From Flavobacteriales bacterium (lineage in GTDB: Bacteria; Bacteroidota; Bacteroidia; UBA10329): a DNA stretch of 36,882 nucleotides. The position numbers were made by a program, and so were the translations under genes. The notes under the pieces are model-generated. The model made no database searches and was not told the origin of the DNA. It worked only from the letters and a program-made list of their open reading frames with translations. The stretch covers positions 1 to 36,882 of the forward strand of contig JAIPBJ010000023.1 in NCBI GenBank assembly GCA_021739625.1, written 5' to 3'. Each line of letters begins with the position of its first letter. Position 1 is the first letter of the stretch. This document shows positions 3,103 through 21,976 of the stretch, in pieces.

Positions 3103-3234
3103 ATGGGGATATGACATGGTGTGACCATTGTGCTTTACACCACCCAGCTGTGGGCCATCGACTATCGTCTGTGAACTCCGCGCATCCTTTCCCCCATCAA
3201 CCAATGGCCATTGACCAATAACCAATCTCCATTA

Positions 3235-3378
3235 CCCCTAACCTTCCCGCATTCGCATATTCGCACCCATTCGTAATTCGCAACCCCTAACCTTCCCGCT
3301 TTCGCATATTCGCGCCCATTCGCAATTCGCAACCCCTAACCTTCCCCCATTCGCAACCATTCGTAATTCGCAACCCAG
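3235..3378 (+). repeat. 49-bp tandem repeat, about 2.8 copies
   Basis: Units start at 3235, 3284 and 3333, each beginning CCCCTAACCTTCCC and ending near ATTCGCAA. The first two are 49 bp. The third lacks about 8 bp around the CATATTCG segment. A single copy of the distal 34 bp of this unit occurs in inverted orientation at 33778-33811 with 32 of 34 bases identical, so the unit is dispersed in the genome and not only local. Confidence 0.85.
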
Positions 3379-3388
3379 CACCCTTCCC

Positions 3389-3619
3389 GCCATATTGTCC
3401 ATCCAGCAGGCCATATCCACCATTCTTCCTGCCATATTGACCATTCTTGCACCCATAGCGGGCATTCTTCCTCCCATGGCCGCCTATCCATGCGACCATG
3501 CCCGGCATCCCTCCGCCAATATGTTCCATTACGCTGTCTATAAGCGCTGTTCTTGCGCCAATATGTTCCATTATGCTGCCCGTAGGCTCCAATACGCTGC
3601 CCCTGGCCTCCATTCTTAA
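3389..3619 (+). repeat. 21-bp degenerate tandem repeat, 11 units
   Basis: Eleven consecutive 21-bp units start at 3389, 3410, 3431, 3452, 3473, 3494, 3515, 3536, 3557, 3578 and 3599. Most begin GCC or CCC and carry a TCCATT or ACCATTC core in the second half. The units at 3515 and 3557 are nearly identical (GCCAATATGTTCCATTA). Spacing is exactly 21 bp throughout although the bases drift, which fits old slippage-type expansion. Read on the minus strand it gives a YGxKNGx-like heptapeptide repeat. Confidence 0.8.
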
Positions 3620-3709
3620 GGCCATATCTCGCAAAGGCCCATCGGGGTCGTGCCCCTTCTTGGGCTGTCCACCGTCCTTTAGGTTCCTTGCTCCACCCCC
3701 TCCACACAA

Positions 3710-3741
3710 ATTGCCTTCTAAAAGGCATCCTATTACCTTTA
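3710..3741 (+). promoter_or_regulatory. Bacteroidota-type promoter of the large surface protein
   Basis: ATTG at 3710-3713, a 20-nt spacer and TACCTTTA at 3734-3741 match the -33 TTTG / -7 TAnnTTTG promoter with one mismatch in each box. The ATG at 3751 follows only 9 nt after the -7 box. A second ATG at 3760 would give a short leader. This argues against the in-frame ATG at 3688, which lies upstream of the promoter. Confidence 0.6.
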
Positions 3742-3750
3742 TCCCGTTCT

Positions 3751-6700
3751 ATGTTTCACATGAGACTTTTCTCTGCCCATCACGGTTCCATTAAGGCTTG
3801 CCTGTGCTCCTTTCAGGGTATTCTTCTCGTCCTGATGCTGTCCGTTGGCGATGTATGGGCGCAGGTGGACACCGAGTTCTGGTTCGCTGCCCCGGAGGTG
3901 TCTCAGGACGGCTCCAACTTCGACCGGCCCATCACGCTGCGTATCACCACCTTGGGTCAGGCCAGCACCGTGACCGTCACCCAGCCCGCCAACGGTGGTT
4001 TTGTGCCGATCGCAATCAATGTGGCGGCCAATGCCAGTGCCAACATCGACCTCACCCCTTTCATCAACACCATTGAGAACAAGCCCGCCAACGCGGTGCT
4101 GAACTTCGGGCTTCACATCACTGCCACGGCCCCGGTAAGCATCTACTACGAGGTGGTGAGTCAGCAATGCCTCTGCAATCCCGAGATATTCGCGCTGAAG
4201 GGAATGAATGCGGTCGGCAACGGATTCATAGTTCCATTCCAGACCTTTCTCAATAATGGCGGGGGTTATGCGCCCACTCCATATTCCTCCTTCGACATTG
4301 TGGCCACCGAGAACACGACCACGGTGACCATCACGCCCACACAGGCCATCGTGGGCCACCCGGCCGGAGTGCCTTTCACCTTCAACCTCGATCAGGGACA
4401 GACATGGTCGGGCACTGCAAGTTCGCAGGCGGCAGCACAGCACCCGAGCGGCACCGTGGTCACGTCCGACAGGCCCATCGCCATCACCATCAAGGACGAC
4501 CTGCTCTCTGGCGCACCCTACGGAGGCTGTGCCGACCTGATGGGCGATCAGATCGTTCCCATCGACAAGGTCGGAGAGGAATACATAGTGATGAAAGGAG
4601 GTCTGAACGGCCCCGACCGCGTCTTCATTGTCGGCACCCAGAACGGGACCACAGTGGCAGTGGCAGGCGCAGGTGCCGGAACCATCAACGCGGGCCAGAC
4701 CCTGACCGTTGACATCACTGCGGCTTCGACCTACATCGTGGCATCGGCACCGGTCTATGTGCTGCATCTTTCGGGTTTCGGCTGCGAAGTGGGCGGAGCG
4801 CTGCTGCCGCCCATCATCTGCACCGGCTCCGCACAGCTCGGATTCACGCGCAGCACCAACGAGAATTTTGCCGTTAACCTGATGACCCGAACGGGCAACG
4901 AGGGAGGATTCACCATCAACGGGAATGCCGGGCTCGTTCCTGCCGGGGCGTTCCAACCTGTTCCTAACACCAATGGCGACTGGATGGCGGCCCAGATCTA
5001 TTTCACCGTAGGCCAGATTGCGGCCGGAAGCGGCAACATCATCGCCAATTCGCTCGGAAAGTTCCACATGGGCATCATCCATGGTTCGGGAGGTGGCGGC
5101 ACGCGCTATGGCTATTTTTCAGACTTCAATGCCCTCGATCCGCCCATTGTGGCCTCTTCGGTCAACGCCTGCACAGGTGGCGAGATCCTGCTTTCGGCCA
5201 GTTCCGATCCCGGTGCCACTTTCGATTGGACGGGGCCGAACGGATTCACCAGCACGGTGCAGAATCCCGTGATCATGAATGCTGCTTTCATCCATCAGGG
5301 CATTTATACGGTGATCGCAGAATTGGACGGATGCGTCAGCGACTCTGCCCACGTGCCTGTGACCGTGGAGGACTGCGGATGTGTTGAGACCGTCTCTAAC
5401 GGTGGGTTTGAACAACCTGTTGCCAGCGCGTGCTGGGACGTGTTCAATCAGGCGCAGGTGCCCGAATGGCGCACATTGAGCGCGATGAACATCATGGAGA
5501 TATGGAACGGGGCCTGCATGGGTGTTCCTGCTTATGAAGGTGCCCAAATGGCTGAAATGGATGCGGGCATCGCTCCCTATTTCATGGATGTCTGCACCGA
5601 TTGCGCTGAGATCGTCAATTGGGGACTTGCCCACCGTGGCCGAATGGGCGTGGATGTGATGGGGCTGGAGGCCGGCCCACCGGGAGGCCCCTACGTTCCG
5701 CTGGGCGCCTTTACCGATAGCAACAATGCATGGGGCTATTACACGGGTGTTTACAACGTTCCTGCTGGCCAAGCGATGACACGTTTCCTGCTCACTTCCA
5801 TCTCTGCATCGGGCGGAAATTCTTCCATCGGGAATCTGGTGGATGCCGTGACCTTCGTGCAGGCCGTCATTCCAATAAATGTGTCTGCGCTCATCTGCGA
5901 TGGCGGCAGCTACCTGCTGCCTGGAGGCACCACGGTCGCTGTACCAGGGGTTTATACCGACACATTGGTATCCTCAGCAGGTTGCGACAGCGTCATAGTC
6001 ACCACACTGGCCTTCCATCCACAGCCCGTGGCAAATGCCGGACAAGATGCGGCCGTCTGTGCCGGTGAATCCGTCCAATTGAATGGTTCGGGCGGTGTTG
6101 CCTACGCATGGACGCCTGTTCCCACACTTTCCGACCCTGCTACGGCAAACCCGACAGCCACGCCTGCCTCAACCACTGCCTACACGCTCACAGTGACCGA
6201 TGCAAATGGCTGCGAGGACAACGGAACGGTCACTGTCACCGTCAATCCGCTCCCGAGTGTGAATGCCGGAACGGACGCATCCGTCTGCATCGGCACAACC
6301 GCACAGCTTGGCGCAAGTGGGGCCGATAGTTACGATTGGTCACCGGCCGCTGGCCTTGACGATGCGGCCATTTCCGATCCCACATTCAGCGGCCTTGCCA
6401 CGCAGACCTTCACCGTCACTGGCACAGATGCCAACGGATGCCAGAACACCGATGATGTGACGGTGACGGTGGTGGACCTGCCTTCTGTGAATGCGGGCAA
6501 CGACACTGCCATCTGCATCGGTAGCACCCTCCAGCTCAATGCAACAGGCGGAGTGAGTTATGTGTGGGATCCGGCCACAGACCTGAACAATGTGAACATT
6601 GCCAATCCCATATTCTCCGGAATCCAAACAACAGCCTTCACAGTAACGGGGACAGACGCGGCAGGGTGCGTGAACACGGACGATATCACCATCACGGTGA

Positions 6701-12839: not shown

Positions 12840-13088
12840 ATGGTCTCACTCAAAAAGAACATCGCCATCAGCGACTCTGGGTTTGTGTTCAACCCATCCA
12901 ACGGTGACTCATTCTCGCTCAATCAGATCGGTCTCGATATGCTGCTGCAATTGAAGGAAGCGCAGTCGGAAGAACAGGTGAAGGCCGCCATCATGGCCAA
13001 GTATGACATTGACCGCGACTCGCTGGACAACGACTACTATGATTTTCTCAAGATGTTGGGTCAATTCAAACTGCTGGAGCTGTCATGA
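12840..13088 (+). CDS. PqqD-like protein (RiPP recognition element fold)
   Basis: The protein has 82 residues. The pattern (MVSLKKNIAISDSGFVFNP, then SLNQIGLDMLLQLKEAQSEEQVKAAI, then DYYDFLKMLGQFKLL) matches PqqD-like chaperones: an N-terminal beta-hairpin, the 'LNxxGxxhLxLL' turn into helix 1, and a final helical pair. In known RiPP pathways this fold binds the leader of a precursor peptide and presents it to modifying enzymes. Its stop overlaps the start of the ATP-grasp gene by 4 bp (ATGA), so the two are translationally coupled and very probably act together. It may serve as a leader-binding element or as a carrier. A weak promoter-like TTACTTCG lies at 12806-12813. Confidence 0.75.
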   Translation: MVSLKKNIAISDSGFVFNPSNGDSFSLNQIGLDMLLQLKEAQSEEQVKAAIMAKYDIDRDSLDNDYYDFLKMLGQFKLLELS

Positions 13089-14143: not shown

Positions 14144-14240
14144 GAAAATGGAAAACGGAAAATCGTTTGGGAGGACGCACCTTCTGAAATCATTACTCAC
14201 CAATTGTTAATTGCCAATAATTAATTGTTAATTGAAATAA
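14144..14240 (+). repeat. Heptanucleotide repeats upstream of the PLP decarboxylase
   Basis: Two runs occur: GAAAATG GAAAACG GAAAATC at 14144-14164, and CCAATTG TTAATTG CCAATAA TTAATTG TTAATTG at 14200-14234. Both have an exact 7-bp period. The second run ends 8 nt before the ATG at 14243, so it forms the translation-initiation region of the decarboxylase. It also interrupts the otherwise tight operon. Confidence 0.7.
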
Positions 14241-14242
14241 AG

Positions 14243-15601
14243 ATGGAAAAGCAACGCTACGAACGCCCCGTCATCAGGAGACTGAACGTGGGAGTGATGA
14301 ACAAATTCGGCACGCGCACCGAGTATGAGCCTGTGACCCACATTGATGACAATGCAGTGGCATCGCTCATCAAAGAGCACGGTTCGCCCCTGTTCGTCAT
14401 CTCAGAGAAGACGATACGCACCACCTTCCAAGATGCGCTGCGGGCCTTCAACACACGCTATCCGAAGGTGCAGTTCGCCTGGAGCTACAAGACCAACTAC
14501 ATCGCTGGCGTGTGCAACGTGTTCCATCAGATGGGCTCTTGGGCCGAGGTGGTGTCGGGTTTCGAGTATCTGAAGGCGCTGAAATCGAACGTGCCGGGCA
14601 ACAAGATCATCTTCAACGGACCGGACAAGACCGTGGAGGAACTGACCTTGGCCATCGACAACGACTCTCTCATCCACATCGACCACTTGGACGAGCTCTA
14701 CACGCTCACCGAGCTGGCCATTGCCAAAGCCAAGAAGCCTCGCGTGGCCATCCGTGTCAACATGGACACGGGCATCTATCCCATGTGGGACCGCTTCGGA
14801 TTCAACTACGAGAACGGACAGGCGTGGGATGCCATCAACAAGATCGTGCTGGCCGACAGGCTGCAACTGGTGGGCCTTCATGCGCACATCGGCACCTTCA
14901 TGCTGTCGCCAAGCGCCTATGGTGTGGCGGCAGGCAAGCTGAGCGAACTGGCCATCCGAGTACGTGACAAGTTCGGGCGCAAGATCGAATACCTCGACCT
15001 CGGTGGCGGTTTTGCATCGAAGAACACGCTCAAAGGCTCGTTCCTCTCGGGTCCCGACACATCGCCCACCTTCGATGATTTTGCGGAGACCATCGTAACA
15101 GCAATTGTCAATGCAGGTTTCTTGGAGGATGAGCTTCCGCTGCTGATCCTCGAAACAGGCCGCGCCTTAGTGGACGAGGCAGGTTATCTGCTCGGGTCGG
15201 TAATCAGCAACAAACGCCTCAGCGATGGCCGCAGGGCCACCATCATGGACTTCGGGGTCAACATCCTGTTCACCGCCTTCTGGTACGACCACAAGATCAG
15301 CCCCGCGCAGGACTTCAGTCACCACACCGAGGACACAGTGATGTACGGCCCATTGTGCATGAACATCGATGTGGTGCGCGAGAACGCCACACTGCCGCCC
15401 ATGAAGCGTGGCGAACACGTGGTGGTGCACAGCGTGGGTGCCTACAACATGACCCAATGGATGCAGTTCATCGCGCTGCGCCCGGCCGTGGTGATGATCG
15501 ACATGAAGGGCAAACCCCATCTGGTGCGCAAGCGCGAGACCCTCGCCAACATCGATGAGCAGGAAGTGTTGCCTGAGTACCTTCGGGCGTTTAAGCTGTA
15601 G
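14243..15601 (+). CDS. Fold-type-III PLP decarboxylase (LysA/ODC-like) with a RiPP-leader-like N-terminus
   Basis: The protein has 452 residues. From about residue 30 it is an alanine-racemase-fold PLP decarboxylase. K83 (WSYKTN) is the PLP Schiff-base lysine, H213-H215 (GLHAHIGT) stacks on PLP, G254-F257 (DLGGGF) holds phosphate, ETGRALVDEAG is the second phosphate segment, and C372 (GPLCMNID) is the catalytic cysteine at the dimer interface. Diaminopimelate decarboxylase normally reads CES.D there and ornithine decarboxylase CDG.D. The MNID replacement implies another substrate. Residues 1-24 precede the catalytic domain and read RYERPVIRRLNVG, a YxxPxI...G pattern like leader peptides bound by PqqD-type elements. 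I chose the ATG at 14243; the TTG at 14225 lies inside repeat sequence. It follows the PqqD-like and ATP-grasp genes on the same strand. Confidence 0.82.
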   Translation: MEKQRYERPVIRRLNVGVMNKFGTRTEYEPVTHIDDNAVASLIKEHGSPLFVISEKTIRTTFQDALRAFNTRYPKVQFAWSYKTNYIAGVCNVFHQMGSWAEVVSGFEYLKALKSNVPGNKIIFNGPDKTVEELTLAIDNDSLIHIDHLDELYTLTELAIAKAKKPRVAIRVNMDTGIYPMWDRFGFNYENGQAWDAINKIVLADRLQLVGLHAHIGTFMLSPSAYGVAAGKLSELAIRVRDKFGRKIEYLDLGGGFASKNTLKGSFLSGPDTSPTFDDFAETIVTAIVNAGFLEDELPLLILETGRALVDEAGYLLGSVISNKRLSDGRRATIMDFGVNILFTAFWYDHKISPAQDFSHHTEDTVMYGPLCMNIDVVRENATLPPMKRGEHVVVHSVGAYNMTQWMQFIALRPAVVMIDMKGKPHLVRKRETLANIDEQEVLPEYLRAFKL

Positions 15602-15657: not shown

Positions 15658-16392
15658 ATGAACCCACAAGTAATCGTAGTTATTCTTCAAGTACTCCTAA
15701 TCACTATCGGACTCTACTTGGCTTTTTTTAAGTCGTACTTCACCGAGAAAGGGAAGAATTTAGCAACGTTTGAGGATATAGATGAGATCACCTCTAAAGT
15801 GGAAGCCATTAAAACGGACTTTATACGAGAGACTGAAAAATTAAAGTTGGAAATTCAGTTGACCAATCAGATTAAATTTTCCCTAAAGGATGAAGAACTA
15901 AAAGCGCTAATAGGCTTCTACGACAATTATTATTTATGGCTTAATACACTTCTAGATTTTTCCATTGCCAACTATACCGAAGACGGTGTTCATGACCGTA
16001 ATCGGGCTGTAGGAATAATCAATGATGTTTACTCCAAATACAACCTTTCTGAAGCAAAAGCGGAGTTGTTTCTTAAAGACGAAGAAATAGTAGCTCATAC
16101 TCGTCAGATGAAGACTAAAACTTTGGAATTGCACGCTTTCACTTTCGCTGCAATAAGACAATACAATGCCATGCTCTCTGAACTTGCATCAATCAAAGCA
16201 TCTACTGCTCCTGACCACCATATTGAGGAACACTCGAAATTCAATCAAAAGATGGTGCTTTTTGTGGAGAAATTCTATGCCGATCAACTAGAACGTTATG
16301 CAGTGATTTCTCCAATGAATTTGCAGTTTCAAAAACTTTCATATCGTTTGCTTATCTCGCTATCCAAATCAGAAGACTCAATCCCGAAATAG
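15658..16392 (+). CDS. AT-rich membrane-anchored coiled-coil protein, probably acquired
   Basis: The protein has 244 residues. An N-terminal transmembrane helix (VIVVILQVLLITIGLYLAFF) is followed by KSYFTEKGKNLATFEDIDEI. This is a junction I recall from many small Bacteroidota and phage-associated membrane proteins of unknown function, leading into a helical, probably coiled-coil cytoplasmic part. No enzymatic motif is visible. The DNA is strikingly AT-rich with A/T-ending codons, unlike the GC-rich genes on either side, and its promoter and 3' flanks are also AT-rich. This marks a recent arrival. A near-repeat (GTATCATTGAAA at 15620, GTATTATTGAAA at 16518) flanks the AT-rich block, but it is short and could be chance. 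The function is unknown. Confidence 0.72.
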   Translation: MNPQVIVVILQVLLITIGLYLAFFKSYFTEKGKNLATFEDIDEITSKVEAIKTDFIRETEKLKLEIQLTNQIKFSLKDEELKALIGFYDNYYLWLNTLLDFSIANYTEDGVHDRNRAVGIINDVYSKYNLSEAKAELFLKDEEIVAHTRQMKTKTLELHAFTFAAIRQYNAMLSELASIKASTAPDHHIEEHSKFNQKMVLFVEKFYADQLERYAVISPMNLQFQKLSYRLLISLSKSEDSIPK

Positions 16393-16528: not shown

Positions 16529-18721
16529 ATGACCCCTGCCGCACGCAAATATCTCTGGAACCTGTTCCGCGATGCGCTGCTGCACGGCTATTCGCAGATC
16601 TTCTTCAGTCTGGACAGGACGTTCGGCATAGTGCTGCTCATCGTGTCGTTTACCGACCCGTATGTGGCGCTGAGCGGACTGAGCGCAGGTCTGCTGGCCA
16701 ACTTCGCGGCCTATGCCCTGGGCTACGACCACAAGGGCATTCGCGAAGGGATGTACAGCTTCAACAGCATCATGATGGGCATGATGATGGGCGTTTATTA
16801 TGACGTGAACATCCAGTTCGTGCTACTGTTGGCCTTGTTGTCCATGCTGGTGCTCTTCCTCAGCATCGGGTTGCAGAGCCGCTTTGGTACAAAAGGATTG
16901 CCTGTGATGAGCATCCCGTTCCTCTTCGGGGTGTGGACGCTGCTGCTGGTGGGCCGTCAGTTCACCGGCCTCGACCTCTCGGAGCGCGGCATCTACACCG
17001 TGAACGAACTGTGGAGCTATGGCGGGCAGTTTCTCGTGAATCTCCACGCCACGGTAGAGGGGCTTCCTGTGCCTGAGCTGATGGCCGTCTATCTGCGGTC
17101 GTTGGGGGCCATCTTCTTCCAGAACACACTTTTTGCGGGCTTCATCATCCTGTTGGGGCTGGTGGTGTTCTCGCGCATTGCCTTTGTGCTGAGCGTCATC
17201 GGGTTTTTCAGCGGCTACTTTTTCTTCGGGTTCATGAGCGGCAGTTTCATGCAGCTTAACTACACCTTCATCGGGTTCAACTTTATCCTGTCGAGCATTG
17301 CGCTGGGCGGGTTCTTCATCATCCCTTCGTTCGGGTCGCATGTGCTGGTGGTGCTCACTGCGCCTGTCATCGCCATTCTCATCTCGGCCCTTTCGCAAGT
17401 GATGGGCACGTTCGGGCTGCCCATCTATTCCCTGCCCTACAACATTATTGTGCTGCTCACGCTCTACACTTTGCGCACGAGGGCAGTGCCGAAGGGTTGG
17501 CTCACACTCATCACCGAGCAGACCTATTCGCCCGAAAAGAACCTCTATCGCTTTCAGAACCGCATGGCCCGTTATGCCCGCGACACATGGTTCCATATCT
17601 ATCTCCCGTTCTATGGCGAATGGACCATAAGCCAAGGCCACGATGGTGACCAGACCCACAAGGGCGAATGGCAGCACGCGCTCGATTTCTCCATCATGGA
17701 TAGCGGTGGGTCGAGTTACAAGGCGCCCGGTTCGAAGTTGGAGGACTATTACTGCTATAACCGTCCGATCGTTGCTCCACAGGATGGCTGGGTGGTGGCG
17801 CTCCAAGATGGTGTGGCCGATAACCGCCCTGGTGAGATGGATCTGGACAAGAACTGGGGCAATGCCATCGTCATTAAGCATGGCGAGGGCATTTTCAGCA
17901 AGGTGAGCCACATCCGCGAAGGCACCTACAAAGTGGCCTTAGGCGACTATGTGAAGAAGGGACAGGTGTTGGCCAACATCGGCAACAGTGGCCGCTCGCC
18001 CGAGCCGCACATCCATTTCCAGTTGCAGGCCACGCCTTTCATCGGTAGCCGTACCATGGCCTATCCGCTGGCCTATTATGCCGTGAAGGAGAATGGGAAG
18101 CCATCGTTCCGCTCGTTTGCAACGCCCAAGGAAGGTGAAGTGGTGAGCAACATCGCCATCAACCCCGTGCTGAAGAAGGCCTTCTGGCTGCAACCCGGCA
18201 TGTGTTTCCAAGTGTTCGGAGAGAAGACACAGGAGCAATGGGAGGTGTACACCGATGCCTACAACCACAGCTACATCTGGTGCGCGAAGACGGAGAGCAC
18301 GGCCTATTTCGTGAACAACGGAACGCTGTTCTACTTCACGGATTTCATTGGCGACAGAAATTCCATCCTTTTCAGGTTCCATTTGGCTGCGCAACGCATT
18401 CTGCTCAGTTCGGAGGATGGACTGAAGGTGAACGACCGCCTCTCGGTGGATACCGTTTTCAGTGGGCCGAAGAAGGCCGCGTTGGATGCCGTGGCACCAT
18501 TCGCGCAAGTGGTGAGGGCAGACTTCGCGGAGTTCTGCGACAGTGCCGACCGGGACATCACCCCCAAGTGGGCCATTCTGCGTTCCAACATAAAGGTGCA
18601 GGCCTTCGGGCAGGTGCAGCGCAACATGGATTTCCGCATCGACATCGGCCCTGAGGGCGTCTCAGGCTTCGACATGGAAGTGGGCAAAACGAAATACCGG
18701 TACACATGCGCGCTACAATAG
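16529..18721 (+). CDS. Urea-transporter-like membrane protein fused to an M23-family peptidase domain
   Basis: The protein has 730 residues. Residues 10-335 hold about ten membrane helices with the two internal repeats of the urea transporter family: HGYSQIFFSLDRTFGIVLL near residue 20 and LGAIFFQNTLFAGFIILLG near 195, plus FNSIMMGMMMG. Residues 370-520 are a lysostaphin/LytM-type (M23) domain: WQHALDF (H383, D386), VVALQDG, VSHIREGTYKVALGDYVKKGQ and PHIHFQ (H494, H496). The H383-D386 spacing is HxxD rather than the usual HxxxD, so activity is uncertain. The last 200 residues are an extra beta-rich part. I infer an inner-membrane channel with a periplasmic peptidase or peptidoglycan-binding arm. 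It overlaps the TPR-barrel gene by 16 bp, so the three genes form an operon. Confidence 0.83.
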   Translation: MTPAARKYLWNLFRDALLHGYSQIFFSLDRTFGIVLLIVSFTDPYVALSGLSAGLLANFAAYALGYDHKGIREGMYSFNSIMMGMMMGVYYDVNIQFVLLLALLSMLVLFLSIGLQSRFGTKGLPVMSIPFLFGVWTLLLVGRQFTGLDLSERGIYTVNELWSYGGQFLVNLHATVEGLPVPELMAVYLRSLGAIFFQNTLFAGFIILLGLVVFSRIAFVLSVIGFFSGYFFFGFMSGSFMQLNYTFIGFNFILSSIALGGFFIIPSFGSHVLVVLTAPVIAILISALSQVMGTFGLPIYSLPYNIIVLLTLYTLRTRAVPKGWLTLITEQTYSPEKNLYRFQNRMARYARDTWFHIYLPFYGEWTISQGHDGDQTHKGEWQHALDFSIMDSGGSSYKAPGSKLEDYYCYNRPIVAPQDGWVVALQDGVADNRPGEMDLDKNWGNAIVIKHGEGIFSKVSHIREGTYKVALGDYVKKGQVLANIGNSGRSPEPHIHFQLQATPFIGSRTMAYPLAYYAVKENGKPSFRSFATPKEGEVVSNIAINPVLKKAFWLQPGMCFQVFGEKTQEQWEVYTDAYNHSYIWCAKTESTAYFVNNGTLFYFTDFIGDRNSILFRFHLAAQRILLSSEDGLKVNDRLSVDTVFSGPKKAALDAVAPFAQVVRADFAEFCDSADRDITPKWAILRSNIKVQAFGQVQRNMDFRIDIGPEGVSGFDMEVGKTKYRYTCALQ

Positions 18722-19962
18722 CCCTCATTCTGTTGGTGATGATGGCCACGCAGACCAAGGCGCAGGATGCGGTGTACAGCGACACCGCCCATTACGACTA
18801 TTATATGCTTGGCGAATGGGACGAGGTGATCGCCCATGGCAAGCTGGCCCGCAAACAAGGCGTGGACCACTACTATCTGCGGGCCCGCAACGGCTATGCC
18901 TATTATATGAAGGGGCGCTACATGGCCGCAGCTGCGGAGTTTCAGAAGGCCGTGGCCTTCAATCCCTATTCTGACCATGCACAGACCTATCTGCTATGGT
19001 CGCAGCAGGCGGCAGGGATGCGGAGTGAGAGTTTTCTCACCATGCGCAAGATGCCCATCTCCCTGCGCAACCATCTGGGTGTTCAAGGCCCCAAGTTCTT
19101 TGATGGCATCGCGGTGTCGGGCGGCTACCGCATCAGCACAGGCGATACGCTCATTGGCAGCACGCCCGTGGTGGCCCTGTCGCTTTCGCACTGGCTGGGC
19201 AGCAGGTTGATGTTGGAACATGGCGTGAGTTATATGAATGTGGAGCGTTTCTATGGTGATGCTTGGCAGGTGGCCTATCTGGCGCAGCTCGGCTTGCAAT
19301 TGGCTCCTCGGTGGAACGTGAAAGGCGCATTCACCGCCAATCATTGGGGTACCAAACAGGTATTGACCGATGGTACCACGACCGATTCGACCTACACTGA
19401 ATATGGGGGTGCGCTTTCGTTGCAGTGGCGCACAAGGCGCATTTCATTGAGCGGCTATGGCGGGTATCTGCAAGGCGGTGGTGCAGCCAACGATTCGCTT
19501 GTCAACACTACAGGTGCTCAGGGCGAAGTGCTTGAGCAGTTCTTTGGAGGAATGACCTTCGGTTGGTATCCTCTTGCGAATCTTGACCTGTATTCATTCA
19601 CATCGGTGCACTACGCCCATTTTCTTACACGCACTGCCGAAATTTCTGCCCGTCAGACCATCGGTGGGCGCATTGCCAAGGGCACATGGCTTACGGCCAC
19701 CTACACATGGAACCGCCCGATGTTCAACATGATGGGGCATCAGGCCACCTTTGCCGATAATGCCTTGGAACCATTGGACCACAGCGCATCGTTGCAGGCA
19801 CTCTATTCACCCAAGGGCCGTTGGGGCATCAGCCTTACCTATAGCTTTGAGGCACGCAGGATACGCCTTCCCAATGAGGTCGATAGCCCTATCGGTGCTA
19901 CGCCCCAAAATGCTTCTTTCAACTACCACGGACTATTTGCAGGCTTTCAACTAAAATTCTGA
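18706..19962 (+). CDS. TPR plus outer-membrane beta-barrel protein
   Basis: The protein has 418 residues. A signal peptide (IALILLVMMATQTKAQD) leads to a short TPR-type helical region at about 25-110 (YYLRARNGYAYYMKGRYMAAAAEFQKAVAFNP). From about 135 to the end there are alternating strands rich in aromatic residues and Gly, closing with FNYHGLFAGFQLKF. A terminal Phe after an amphipathic strand is the classic outer-membrane barrel signature. It starts within the end of the upstream fusion gene and is followed after 4 bases by another TPR protein, so the product probably works with both, spanning inner membrane, periplasm and outer membrane. The substrate is unknown; urea or a peptidoglycan product would fit the neighbour but is a guess. 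Confidence 0.75.
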   Translation: MRATIALILLVMMATQTKAQDAVYSDTAHYDYYMLGEWDEVIAHGKLARKQGVDHYYLRARNGYAYYMKGRYMAAAAEFQKAVAFNPYSDHAQTYLLWSQQAAGMRSESFLTMRKMPISLRNHLGVQGPKFFDGIAVSGGYRISTGDTLIGSTPVVALSLSHWLGSRLMLEHGVSYMNVERFYGDAWQVAYLAQLGLQLAPRWNVKGAFTANHWGTKQVLTDGTTTDSTYTEYGGALSLQWRTRRISLSGYGGYLQGGGAANDSLVNTTGAQGEVLEQFFGGMTFGWYPLANLDLYSFTSVHYAHFLTRTAEISARQTIGGRIAKGTWLTATYTWNRPMFNMMGHQATFADNALEPLDHSASLQALYSPKGRWGISLTYSFEARRIRLPNEVDSPIGATPQNASFNYHGLFAGFQLKF

Positions 19963-19966
19963 ACCC

Positions 19967-20575
19967 ATGAGAAACATTGCCCTTTCCCTTGCCCTTTTCA
20001 TCAGTGTGCATGCATTTGCCGGTGACCCAGTGAAGCTGCGCGAGGCCTTCAAGAAAAGCTATGTGGCCGAAAGCCGTGGCGACCTTGCGGCCTCCATCAA
20101 GGCACTTACAGATGTATATGATGATTCTGACTATGGCACCAATCTGCGCCTGGGCTGGCTGCACTACAGTGCCGGGGCTTTCACCGAATCGCAGGGCTAT
20201 TATCAGAAGGCCATAGATCTTATGCCCGCCAGCGTAGAGGCCCGGTTGGGCATGCTCTATCCGGCAGTGGCCCTTGGCCAGTGGGACAAGGTGGCGCGGC
20301 AGTATGAGGAAATACTGAAAGTTGACCCCAAGAACACCAAAGCGCTCTACAATCTTGGCCTCATCGTCTATGGCAAGGCGCAGTATGACAAGGCGCTCAC
20401 CTATTTCAGCACCGGGCTCAATCTCTATCCCTTCGACTACGATTTCAATTTGATGACGGCCTGGACCAGCTATCGCATGGGCAAGATGCGCGAAGCCAAG
20501 GTGCTGTTCGACAAAGCCTTGACCATCGCCCCAGACGATGCCAGCGCATTGGAAGGGCTTGAGTTGGTGAAGTGA
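19967..20575 (+). CDS. Periplasmic TPR protein
   Basis: The protein has 202 residues. A signal peptide (IALSLALFISVHAFAGD) is followed by about five TPR repeats: AAFTESQGYYQKAIDLMP-like, WDKVARQYEEILKVDPKNTKALYNLG, AQYDKALTYFSTGLNLYPFDYD and MREAKVLFDKALTIAPDDASALEGL. TPR proteins are protein-protein adaptors with no catalysis. It is the third gene of the operon with the urea-transporter/M23 fusion and the TPR-barrel protein, so I infer a periplasmic scaffold for them. The stop is followed after 45 bases by the cystathionine beta-synthase gene with its own promoter. Confidence 0.8.
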   Translation: MRNIALSLALFISVHAFAGDPVKLREAFKKSYVAESRGDLAASIKALTDVYDDSDYGTNLRLGWLHYSAGAFTESQGYYQKAIDLMPASVEARLGMLYPAVALGQWDKVARQYEEILKVDPKNTKALYNLGLIVYGKAQYDKALTYFSTGLNLYPFDYDFNLMTAWTSYRMGKMREAKVLFDKALTIAPDDASALEGLELVK

Positions 20576-20620: not shown

Positions 20621-21976
20621 ATGTGGTACAACAACATCCTCGAGACCATCGGCAACACGCCCTTGGTCAAATTGAATAAGGTGACCAAAAGTGTTCCCTG
20701 CACGGTACTGGCCAAAGTTGAGACCTTCAACCCCGGGCATTCCATCAAAGACCGCATGGCGGTGAAGATGATTGAAGATGCTGAGAAGGATGGCCGTTTG
20801 AAACCGGGCGGCACGATCATCGAAGGCACATCGGGCAACACCGGAATGGGCCTCGCATTGGCCGCTATTGTGAAAGGCTATCGCCTCATCTGCACCATGC
20901 CCGATAAACAGAGCAAGGAGAAGATGGACATACTGCGCGCCATGGGTGCGGAGGTGGTGGTCACACCTACGAATGTTGCAGCAGATGACCCACGCTCGTA
21001 CTATTCCGTGGCAAAGCGGCTCAATCACGAGATTCCCAATTCATTCTATCCGAACCAATATGACAACCTGAGCAACGTGACCGCCCACTATGAGCAGACC
21101 GGCCCCGAGATATGGAAGCAGACCGAGGGCAAGATCACCCATCTTGTTGTTGGTGTGGGCACAGGAGGCACCATCAGTGGTACGGCCCGCTATCTGAAAG
21201 AACAGAACCCGAACATCAAAGTCTGGGGCGTGGACACCTACGGTTCTACCCTCAAGGCATATCACGAGACAGGCAAGATTGATGAGAGCGAAATCTATTC
21301 GTACCTAACTGAAGGCATAGGCGAGGATATCATTCCCAAGTGCATCGACTTCAGTGTCATAGACCATTTTGAGAAGGTGACCGACCGCGAGGGCATGCTC
21401 ATGACCCGTGAACTGGCCAAGAAGGAAGGCATTCTTGTGGGCAATAGCGCGGGCTGCGCTATTCAGGGGCTTATCCAGATGAAGGACCAATTGAAACCCA
21501 CTGACCTCGTGGTGGTCATCTTCCACGATCATGGAACCCGCTATGTGGGCAAGATCTTCAATGACGATTGGATGCGCGACCGCGGTTTCCTCGACAAAGG
21601 AGCGGTGCGTGTGCGCGAGGTGCAGGGCGTGAGCAAGACCCTGCTGAAGGTGGATGTGAACGATACGGTGAACGATGTGGTACACATCATCACCGCCAAC
21701 GATGTGTCGCAATTACCGGTTTTTGATGGGGAAAATCCTGTCGGGTCCATCACCGAGGGAAAACTGTTCAGCGAACTCTTTGCCAATCCTGAGATTAAGA
21801 ACTGCCCAGTGCGTGAAATCATGCAGGATTCGTTCCCTGTGGTGGACGGCACGCTGCCCATATCTGAGATCACCGCCAAATTCGACAAGAAGACCTCGGC
21901 CGTGCTCTATCAGGATACATCTGGCAACTACCGTATCCTGACCAAGCACGACATCATCAAGGCGCTGGCGGATTGA
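20621..21976 (+). CDS. Cystathionine beta-synthase with C-terminal CBS pair
   Basis: The enzyme has 451 residues. The fold-type-II PLP domain covers residues 1-320: K43 (NPGHSIKDR) carries PLP, TSGNTG (70-75) binds the substrate carboxylate, GVGTGGTISG binds the cofactor phosphate, and GNSAGCA contacts the PLP nitrogen. Residues 330-451 are two CBS domains (VNDVVHIITANDVSQLPV, then VREIMQDSFPVV and ILTKHDIIKAL), a regulatory adenosyl- or nucleotide-binding module. The reaction is serine plus homocysteine to cystathionine (or a cysteine synthase activity), in cysteine and sulfur metabolism in the cytoplasm. The CBS tail favours cystathionine beta-synthase over plain cysteine synthase. The start ATG is 5 nt after an exact -7 box. 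Confidence 0.9.
   Translation: MWYNNILETIGNTPLVKLNKVTKSVPCTVLAKVETFNPGHSIKDRMAVKMIEDAEKDGRLKPGGTIIEGTSGNTGMGLALAAIVKGYRLICTMPDKQSKEKMDILRAMGAEVVVTPTNVAADDPRSYYSVAKRLNHEIPNSFYPNQYDNLSNVTAHYEQTGPEIWKQTEGKITHLVVGVGTGGTISGTARYLKEQNPNIKVWGVDTYGSTLKAYHETGKIDESEIYSYLTEGIGEDIIPKCIDFSVIDHFEKVTDREGMLMTRELAKKEGILVGNSAGCAIQGLIQMKDQLKPTDLVVVIFHDHGTRYVGKIFNDDWMRDRGFLDKGAVRVREVQGVSKTLLKVDVNDTVNDVVHIITANDVSQLPVFDGENPVGSITEGKLFSELFANPEIKNCPVREIMQDSFPVVDGTLPISEITAKFDKKTSAVLYQDTSGNYRILTKHDIIKALAD

Follow-up and report, generated by a model that had tools for sequence, protein, structure and literature searches.

The window, i.e. the whole stretch of 36,882 nucleotides analysed here, carries a six-gene operon encoding a PqqD-like stand-alone RRE, an ATP-grasp ligase, a PLP decarboxylase (DEC) with an N-terminal tag, a urea-transporter domain fused to an M23 peptidase, and envelope proteins (Table 1). 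The operon is conserved in Bacteroidota and seemingly undescribed; literature searches for this gene set, and for PqqD together with such decarboxylases, returned nothing relevant among open-licence papers. The product of the fifth gene is probably a TPR protein with an outer-membrane barrel, as we infer. In total 218 loci were read, drawn from relatives, the phylum, two classes, a family and two orders; the denominators 208 and 209 used below are complete ortholog sets and loci with enough upstream sequence, respectively.

Table 1. Features of the operon, with positions in the window.
Feature	Position	Strand	Remarks
PqqD-like stand-alone RRE, 82 aa	12840..13088	+	PF05402, 38.3 bits (cut-off 23.4); nearest solved relative TbiB1
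RRE residue N28, equivalent of LppB N33, predicted to fix the kink at the tag proline	12921..12923	+	209/209
RRE residue D65, equivalent of LppB D70, predicted to hydrogen-bond the tag tyrosine	13032..13034	+	covaries with DEC residue 6
ATP-grasp ligase, 348 aa	13085..14131	+	PF15632, 30.1 bits (cut-off 29.1)
DEC, alanine-racemase-fold PLP decarboxylase, 452 aa	14243..15601	+	PF02784 and PF00278
N-terminal tag of DEC, residues 1-24	14243..14314	+	kept in 208 orthologs; residues 1-26 modelled as coil, pLDDT <50
YERPVI, the YxxPxI core of the tag, residues 6-11	14258..14275	+	P9 in 208/208
GVMNKFG, second conserved block of the tag, residues 17-23	14291..14311	+	near-invariant K21
Urea-transporter domain fused to M23 peptidase, operon partner	16529..18721	+	PF03253 and PF01551
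Operon partner with signal-peptide-like start	18706..19962	+	77/115 loci; no Pfam match
TPR protein, operon partner	19967..20575	+	TPR families; 94/115 loci

The first three genes are tightly linked. The genes of the RRE and the ligase lie upstream of DEC in 209/209 loci long enough to tell, the ligase gene being present in all complete loci, and no DEC ortholog without the RRE was found among these 209. The nine loci in which the pair is not visible are all cut by a contig or locus end. The transporter/M23 fusion follows downstream in 103/115 loci. The earlier note on this DNA had read a PqqD-like element in the first gene of the cluster, in agreement with the PF05402 match at 12840..13088 (38.3 bits), upstream of ATP-grasp and DEC.

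DEC meets the test for an alanine-racemase-fold PLP decarboxylase (PF02784 and PF00278, PLP lysine, catalytic Cys): the PLP lysine K83 is present in 143/143 orthologs, the catalytic C372 in 142 of the 143, and residue 373 is Met in all of them. Its closest match both in sequence and in fold is the N-citrylornithine decarboxylase 7kh2 (FigC/FslC), BtrK is among its solved homologs, and the best matches, judged without a tree, point to the conjugated-amino-acid decarboxylase clade (FigC/SbnH/BtrK). FigC, SbnH, AcsE, MccE and BtrK belong to one clade with diaminopimelate decarboxylase and act on conjugated or carrier-bound amino acids, BtrK decarboxylating carrier-bound glutamate (PMC7857480). 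DEC keeps the catalytic Lys and Cys of FigC/FslC and BtrK and shares with FslC the Cys-Met pair, where diaminopimelate decarboxylase has Cys-Glu. However, it passes neither family test: it scores 208.3 bits against a cut-off of 297.9 for LysA (TIGR01048), with Met and not Glu after the catalytic Cys, and 210.9 bits against a cut-off of 500 for FslC/FigC (NF041039), i.e. far under both. It also differs from FigC/FslC and BtrK in bearing the RRE tag, and from FigC/FslC in its partner, which is an ATP-grasp ligase and not a siderophore (NIS) synthetase. We infer that the ligase makes an amide conjugate and that DEC decarboxylates this conjugate; the substrate is unidentified.

The tag, MEKQRYERPVIRRLNVGVMNKFGT, starts from the ATG at 14243 and precedes the Pfam decarboxylase domain, which begins at residue 62; solved homologs align from about residue 34. 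There is an in-frame TTG at 14225, but the ortholog alignment begins at the ATG. The second LysA-like gene of the same genome is distant (26% identity), with a reading frame that starts at about DEC residue 36 and lacks the tag.

All 208 complete DEC orthologs, the most distant at 47% identity, carry the pattern [Y/F]6xxP9x[I/L/V]11. P9 never varies, residue 6 is Y in 185 and F in 23, residue 11 is always I, L or V, and in the second block K21 and G23 are each kept in 207/208 and G17 in 199/208; these counts make the conservation more than chance. Among neighbouring ORFs of at least 100 aa the pattern falls within the first 30 residues in only 10 of 1018 (~1%). The codons at the conserved sites are diverse (all six Arg codons at R8, all four Pro codons at P9), hence the conservation acts on the protein. 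Residues 17-23 include positions that match core residues in conservation. Scans of Pfam and NCBIfam with the tag alone gave sub-threshold matches only (DUF5972, E 0.008).

The spacing is that of the published leader motif, [Y/W]xxPx[L/V/I/F/A] (PMC13381572), and W/Y/LxxP/L/I is described as a broadly distributed RRE recognition sequence (PMC12710340); as a RiPP-leader motif near the N-terminus the tag has the right spacing in 208/208 orthologs if Phe is allowed at the first position. The proposal of the earlier note, that a leader-like extension with the YxxPxI spacing stands ahead of the catalytic domain, is therefore confirmed, and the alignment of ortholog N-termini that it had called for shows P9, residues 6 and 11 and, to a lesser degree, G17 to be kept. 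The note's reading of the extension as a built-in leader would have been refuted by orthologs that keep the RRE and lose the extension or leave it unconserved; this case did not occur, the extension being present in every ortholog with the PqqD-like gene. The tag resembles LPP and lasso leaders in motif spacing, in its position near the N-terminus and in a further conserved block after the motif. Unlike them, it has no cleavable core, the PLP decarboxylase following directly, and in two clades it has Phe at the first position, with loss of the RRE Asp.

The candidate reader of the tag meets the domain and size criteria for a YxxP-type discrete RRE (PF05402, about 80-110 aa, stand-alone). Its nearest solved relatives are TbiB1, a lasso B1 RRE (E 1.9e-6), and then PbaB1 (9x90; E 0.083). 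In the PbaB1-PbaA and LppB-LppA structures the aromatic and the third, hydrophobic, residue of the motif fill two pockets split by a Phe; in LppB an Asn side chain fixes the kink at the motif Pro and an Asp hydrogen-bonds the motif Tyr, and N33A almost abolishes binding while D70A weakens it (PMC13381572). We located the corresponding residues through the PbaB1 alignment (PbaB1 number minus 14). The cleft test (Asn, Asp and Phe equivalent to LppB N33, D70 and F74, or PbaB1 F83) is met: besides the invariant Asn, F69 is present in 193/209 and D65 in 184/208, the remainder having switched together with the tag except for one Y-N pair. Y55 is also among the YxxP-reading residues present. Hence, the protein shares with the YxxP-reading discrete RREs (TbiB1, PbaB1, FusB1; LppB; PqqD) the Pfam family, the size and the aligned pocket residues, and, with its tag, shares with LppB-LppA the invariant Asn and the Asp-Tyr pair. 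It differs from them in its ligand, which here would be the N-terminus of a 452-aa enzyme. The asparagine-synthetase-like cyclase and the transglutaminase-like B2 protease of a lasso cluster are both absent from the conserved operon genes.

If the tag binds the RRE, DEC residue 6 and RRE residue 65 are expected to change together. In the first sample the pairs were Y-D (114), F-Y (4) and F-H (1), with no others. The sample was then enlarged, targeting F-type lineages and after that two whole classes, and gave Y-D 184, Y-N 1, F-Y 14, F-S 7, F-F 1 and F-H 1, with no F-D; the seven F-S pairs belong to a second clade, which came to light only when the hypothesis was already recorded. By normalised and APC-corrected mutual information the 6-65 pair ranks first of 37,064. 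On a tree from which both the tag and the RRE were left out, non-Asp at RRE residue 65 arises in two supported clades, and Phe at DEC residue 6 can be traced to two to three changes, again within these clades. As a guard against clade effects we counted the columns at least 95% conserved outside these clades that had switched within them. In DEC (n=141) clade 1 switched Y6 only and clade 2 switched Y6 and R325; in the RRE (n=7) D65 alone switched, in both clades; in the ligase (n=74) zero and one columns switched. With only two independent events for D65 and two to three for Y6, no sign test that takes the tree into account could be significant, and the strength of the covariation rests on the prior structural prediction and on the switched-column result.

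The top three pairs between DEC and the RRE, 6-65, 15-23 and 20-65, all fall in the tag. Pairs 15-23, 4-54 and 5-53 fit an antiparallel register by extrapolation, and since they were picked with the scores known, the strictly transferred set of published PbaB1-leader contacts was tested apart. This set has a mean z of 1.13 (p 0.0006 against the other pairs between tag and RRE), which falls to a borderline 0.50 (p 0.06) without 6-65.

In an AlphaFold2 model of DEC alone, built from an input of 52 orthologs, with loci that came from genome searches left out, the core is confident (many blocks >90) and residues 1-26 are coil with pLDDT <50, which places the extension outside the fold of the monomer core. 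The outcome that would have spoken against a docking tag, namely packing of the extension into the decarboxylase, thus did not occur, as far as a monomer model can tell. No locus has the RRE, the ligase and DEC in one frame, and a crude AlphaFold2 co-fold was therefore run as a read-through at locus L035, with the out-of-frame ATP-grasp gene as a nonsense linker. The RRE and DEC fold, and tag residues 9-16 reach a pLDDT of at least 50 versus about 20 in the linker; a two-residue bridge forms at residues 15-16, with a partner that cannot be identified from the output. This modelled result fits docking, and we regard it as weak evidence.

The absence of a precursor gene at the cluster, on which the earlier note had remarked, also stands. 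No conserved precursor ORF was found in 141 loci. Room for a small ORF (at least 66 bp) exists between the RRE and ligase genes in three of them and between ligase and DEC in 40, and YxxP-like patterns occur in small ORFs within or near the operon only sporadically, for the most part on the opposite strand and without conservation. A search of the organism's own genome with the tag matched DEC alone, with no second copy, though short weak tags would escape it; a precursor that is distant or has diverged strongly could still exist. The tag itself fails the test for a RiPP precursor, a short peptide with a modified and released core, as it is continuous with the 452-aa enzyme. A second PqqD-like gene lies elsewhere in this genome (6244-6522 of locus L132, contig C148); it adjoins ORFs resembling an HprK-type kinase and a nucleotidyltransferase and is possibly part of a separate RRE cluster.

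Hence, we suggest that residues 1-24 of DEC form a recognition tag of RiPP-leader type that is part of the enzyme itself, and that the RRE of the operon acts as an adaptor with an enzyme, rather than a precursor peptide, as its ligand. The tag would be bound canonically: Tyr6 and Ile11 would fill the two pockets, with the kink at Pro9 lying over Asn28 and the Tyr6 hydroxyl anchored by Asp65, and residues 3-5 and 12-15 would continue the RRE sheet. This binding mode is supported by homology and covariation, without experiment. The RRE may also contact the ATP-grasp ligase and in this way let an amide conjugate formed there pass to dimeric DEC, which would remove the alpha-carboxylate; the product might then serve the urea-transporter/M23/outer-membrane part of the operon, and the GxxNKFG block might bind to the ligase or to the active site of DEC itself. 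In the absence of binding data, physical binding, recruitment of the ligase, channelling and export are all inferred. The RRE probably couples the ligase to the decarboxylase. As the tag and its neighbouring reader protein have switched together, the enzyme has probably replaced the precursor peptide missing from the cluster. We give this explanation as a whole a probability of about three in four. Of the two possibilities raised in the earlier note, tethering of the enzyme to the PqqD-like protein is the one that gains support, by computation only, from the linkage of tag and RRE, the YxxP-reading residues and the 6-65 covariation.

The other possibility, that the enzyme is its own substrate, is neither shown nor excluded, and it stays possible because K21 is near-invariant. 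The docking model leaves the near-invariance of K21 and G23 unexplained. Here the tag would be a fused RiPP-like substrate or carrier arm: the RRE would present it, the ligase would couple an amino acid at K21 (or crosslink a side chain), and DEC would act on its own tethered intermediate, with no separate carrier or precursor. Borosins, in which the precursor is fused to its methyltransferase, are a precedent and likewise combine leader and substrate logic with the enzyme in one chain; however, the borosin core lies in the chain and is modified, while neither a core nor a modification has been shown for DEC. K21 (207/208) and the NKFG block do stand just past the RRE motif, where a core would sit, and the solved homolog BtrK acts on glutamyl-BtrI (PMC7857480). 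On the other hand, contacts between proteins would account for the conserved block just as well, the operon shows no obvious enzyme that could release an isopeptide product, and no conserved acidic partner for a graspetide-type crosslink was seen. We therefore consider such an arm unlikely, while ranking it above the two readings that follow.

The conservation of the second block, core-like at some positions, would also suit an arm of purely structural function, a dimer clasp or active-site lid whose likeness to a leader is coincidental, with the RRE serving something else; monomer-only models leave a role in the oligomer possible. Two findings speak against it: the extension is disordered in the monomer model, and the enzyme's strongest inter-protein covariation joins the tag to the very RRE residue that the crystal structures had pointed to. 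We hold it to be improbable. A shade less probable still is a true precursor encoded elsewhere in the genome, beside which the DEC tag would merely bring in the enzyme, or with which it would compete. RREs usually serve precursors, unlinked precursors occur, and the genome does have a second PqqD-like gene at another site. Against this, the tag search of the genome returned only DEC (with the reservation on short weak tags), the 141 loci hold no conserved small ORF with the motif, and the RRE covaries with the DEC tag itself.

Recognition of leaders by RREs is known; its proposed use for docking an enzyme without a precursor is new as far as our searches show, i.e. within the open-licence literature. 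RREs serve as flags for precursor-peptide pathways, and RRE clusters without a precursor are hard to interpret. If the ligand of an RRE can be an enzyme, as appears to be the case here, the RRE-leader pair would be a docking module of general use in assembling enzymes. The tag is also a handle on the conserved operon, and the covarying pair, Tyr with Asp or Phe with another residue, offers a ready residue-swap experiment.

Several further observations concern the operon and its surroundings. No paper describing the urea-transporter/M23 fusion was found (open-licence papers only); in it D386, H461, H494 and H496 are each present in 97/97 sequences, and the His that usually comes first in the metal site is not conserved. 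Between DEC and the fusion lies a 244-aa ORF without Pfam match (15658-16392), which looks like a local insertion, since these two genes are only about 10 bp apart in most relatives. In a Cryomorphaceae locus (L087) a 567-aa ORF at 3213-4916, resembling a secreted multicopper oxidase, stands between the RRE and ligase genes, and both the tag and the PqqD-like gene are retained. Just past the operon, positions 20621-21976 of the window encode a PLP enzyme similar to cysteine synthase and cystathionine-beta-synthase, with a CBS domain.
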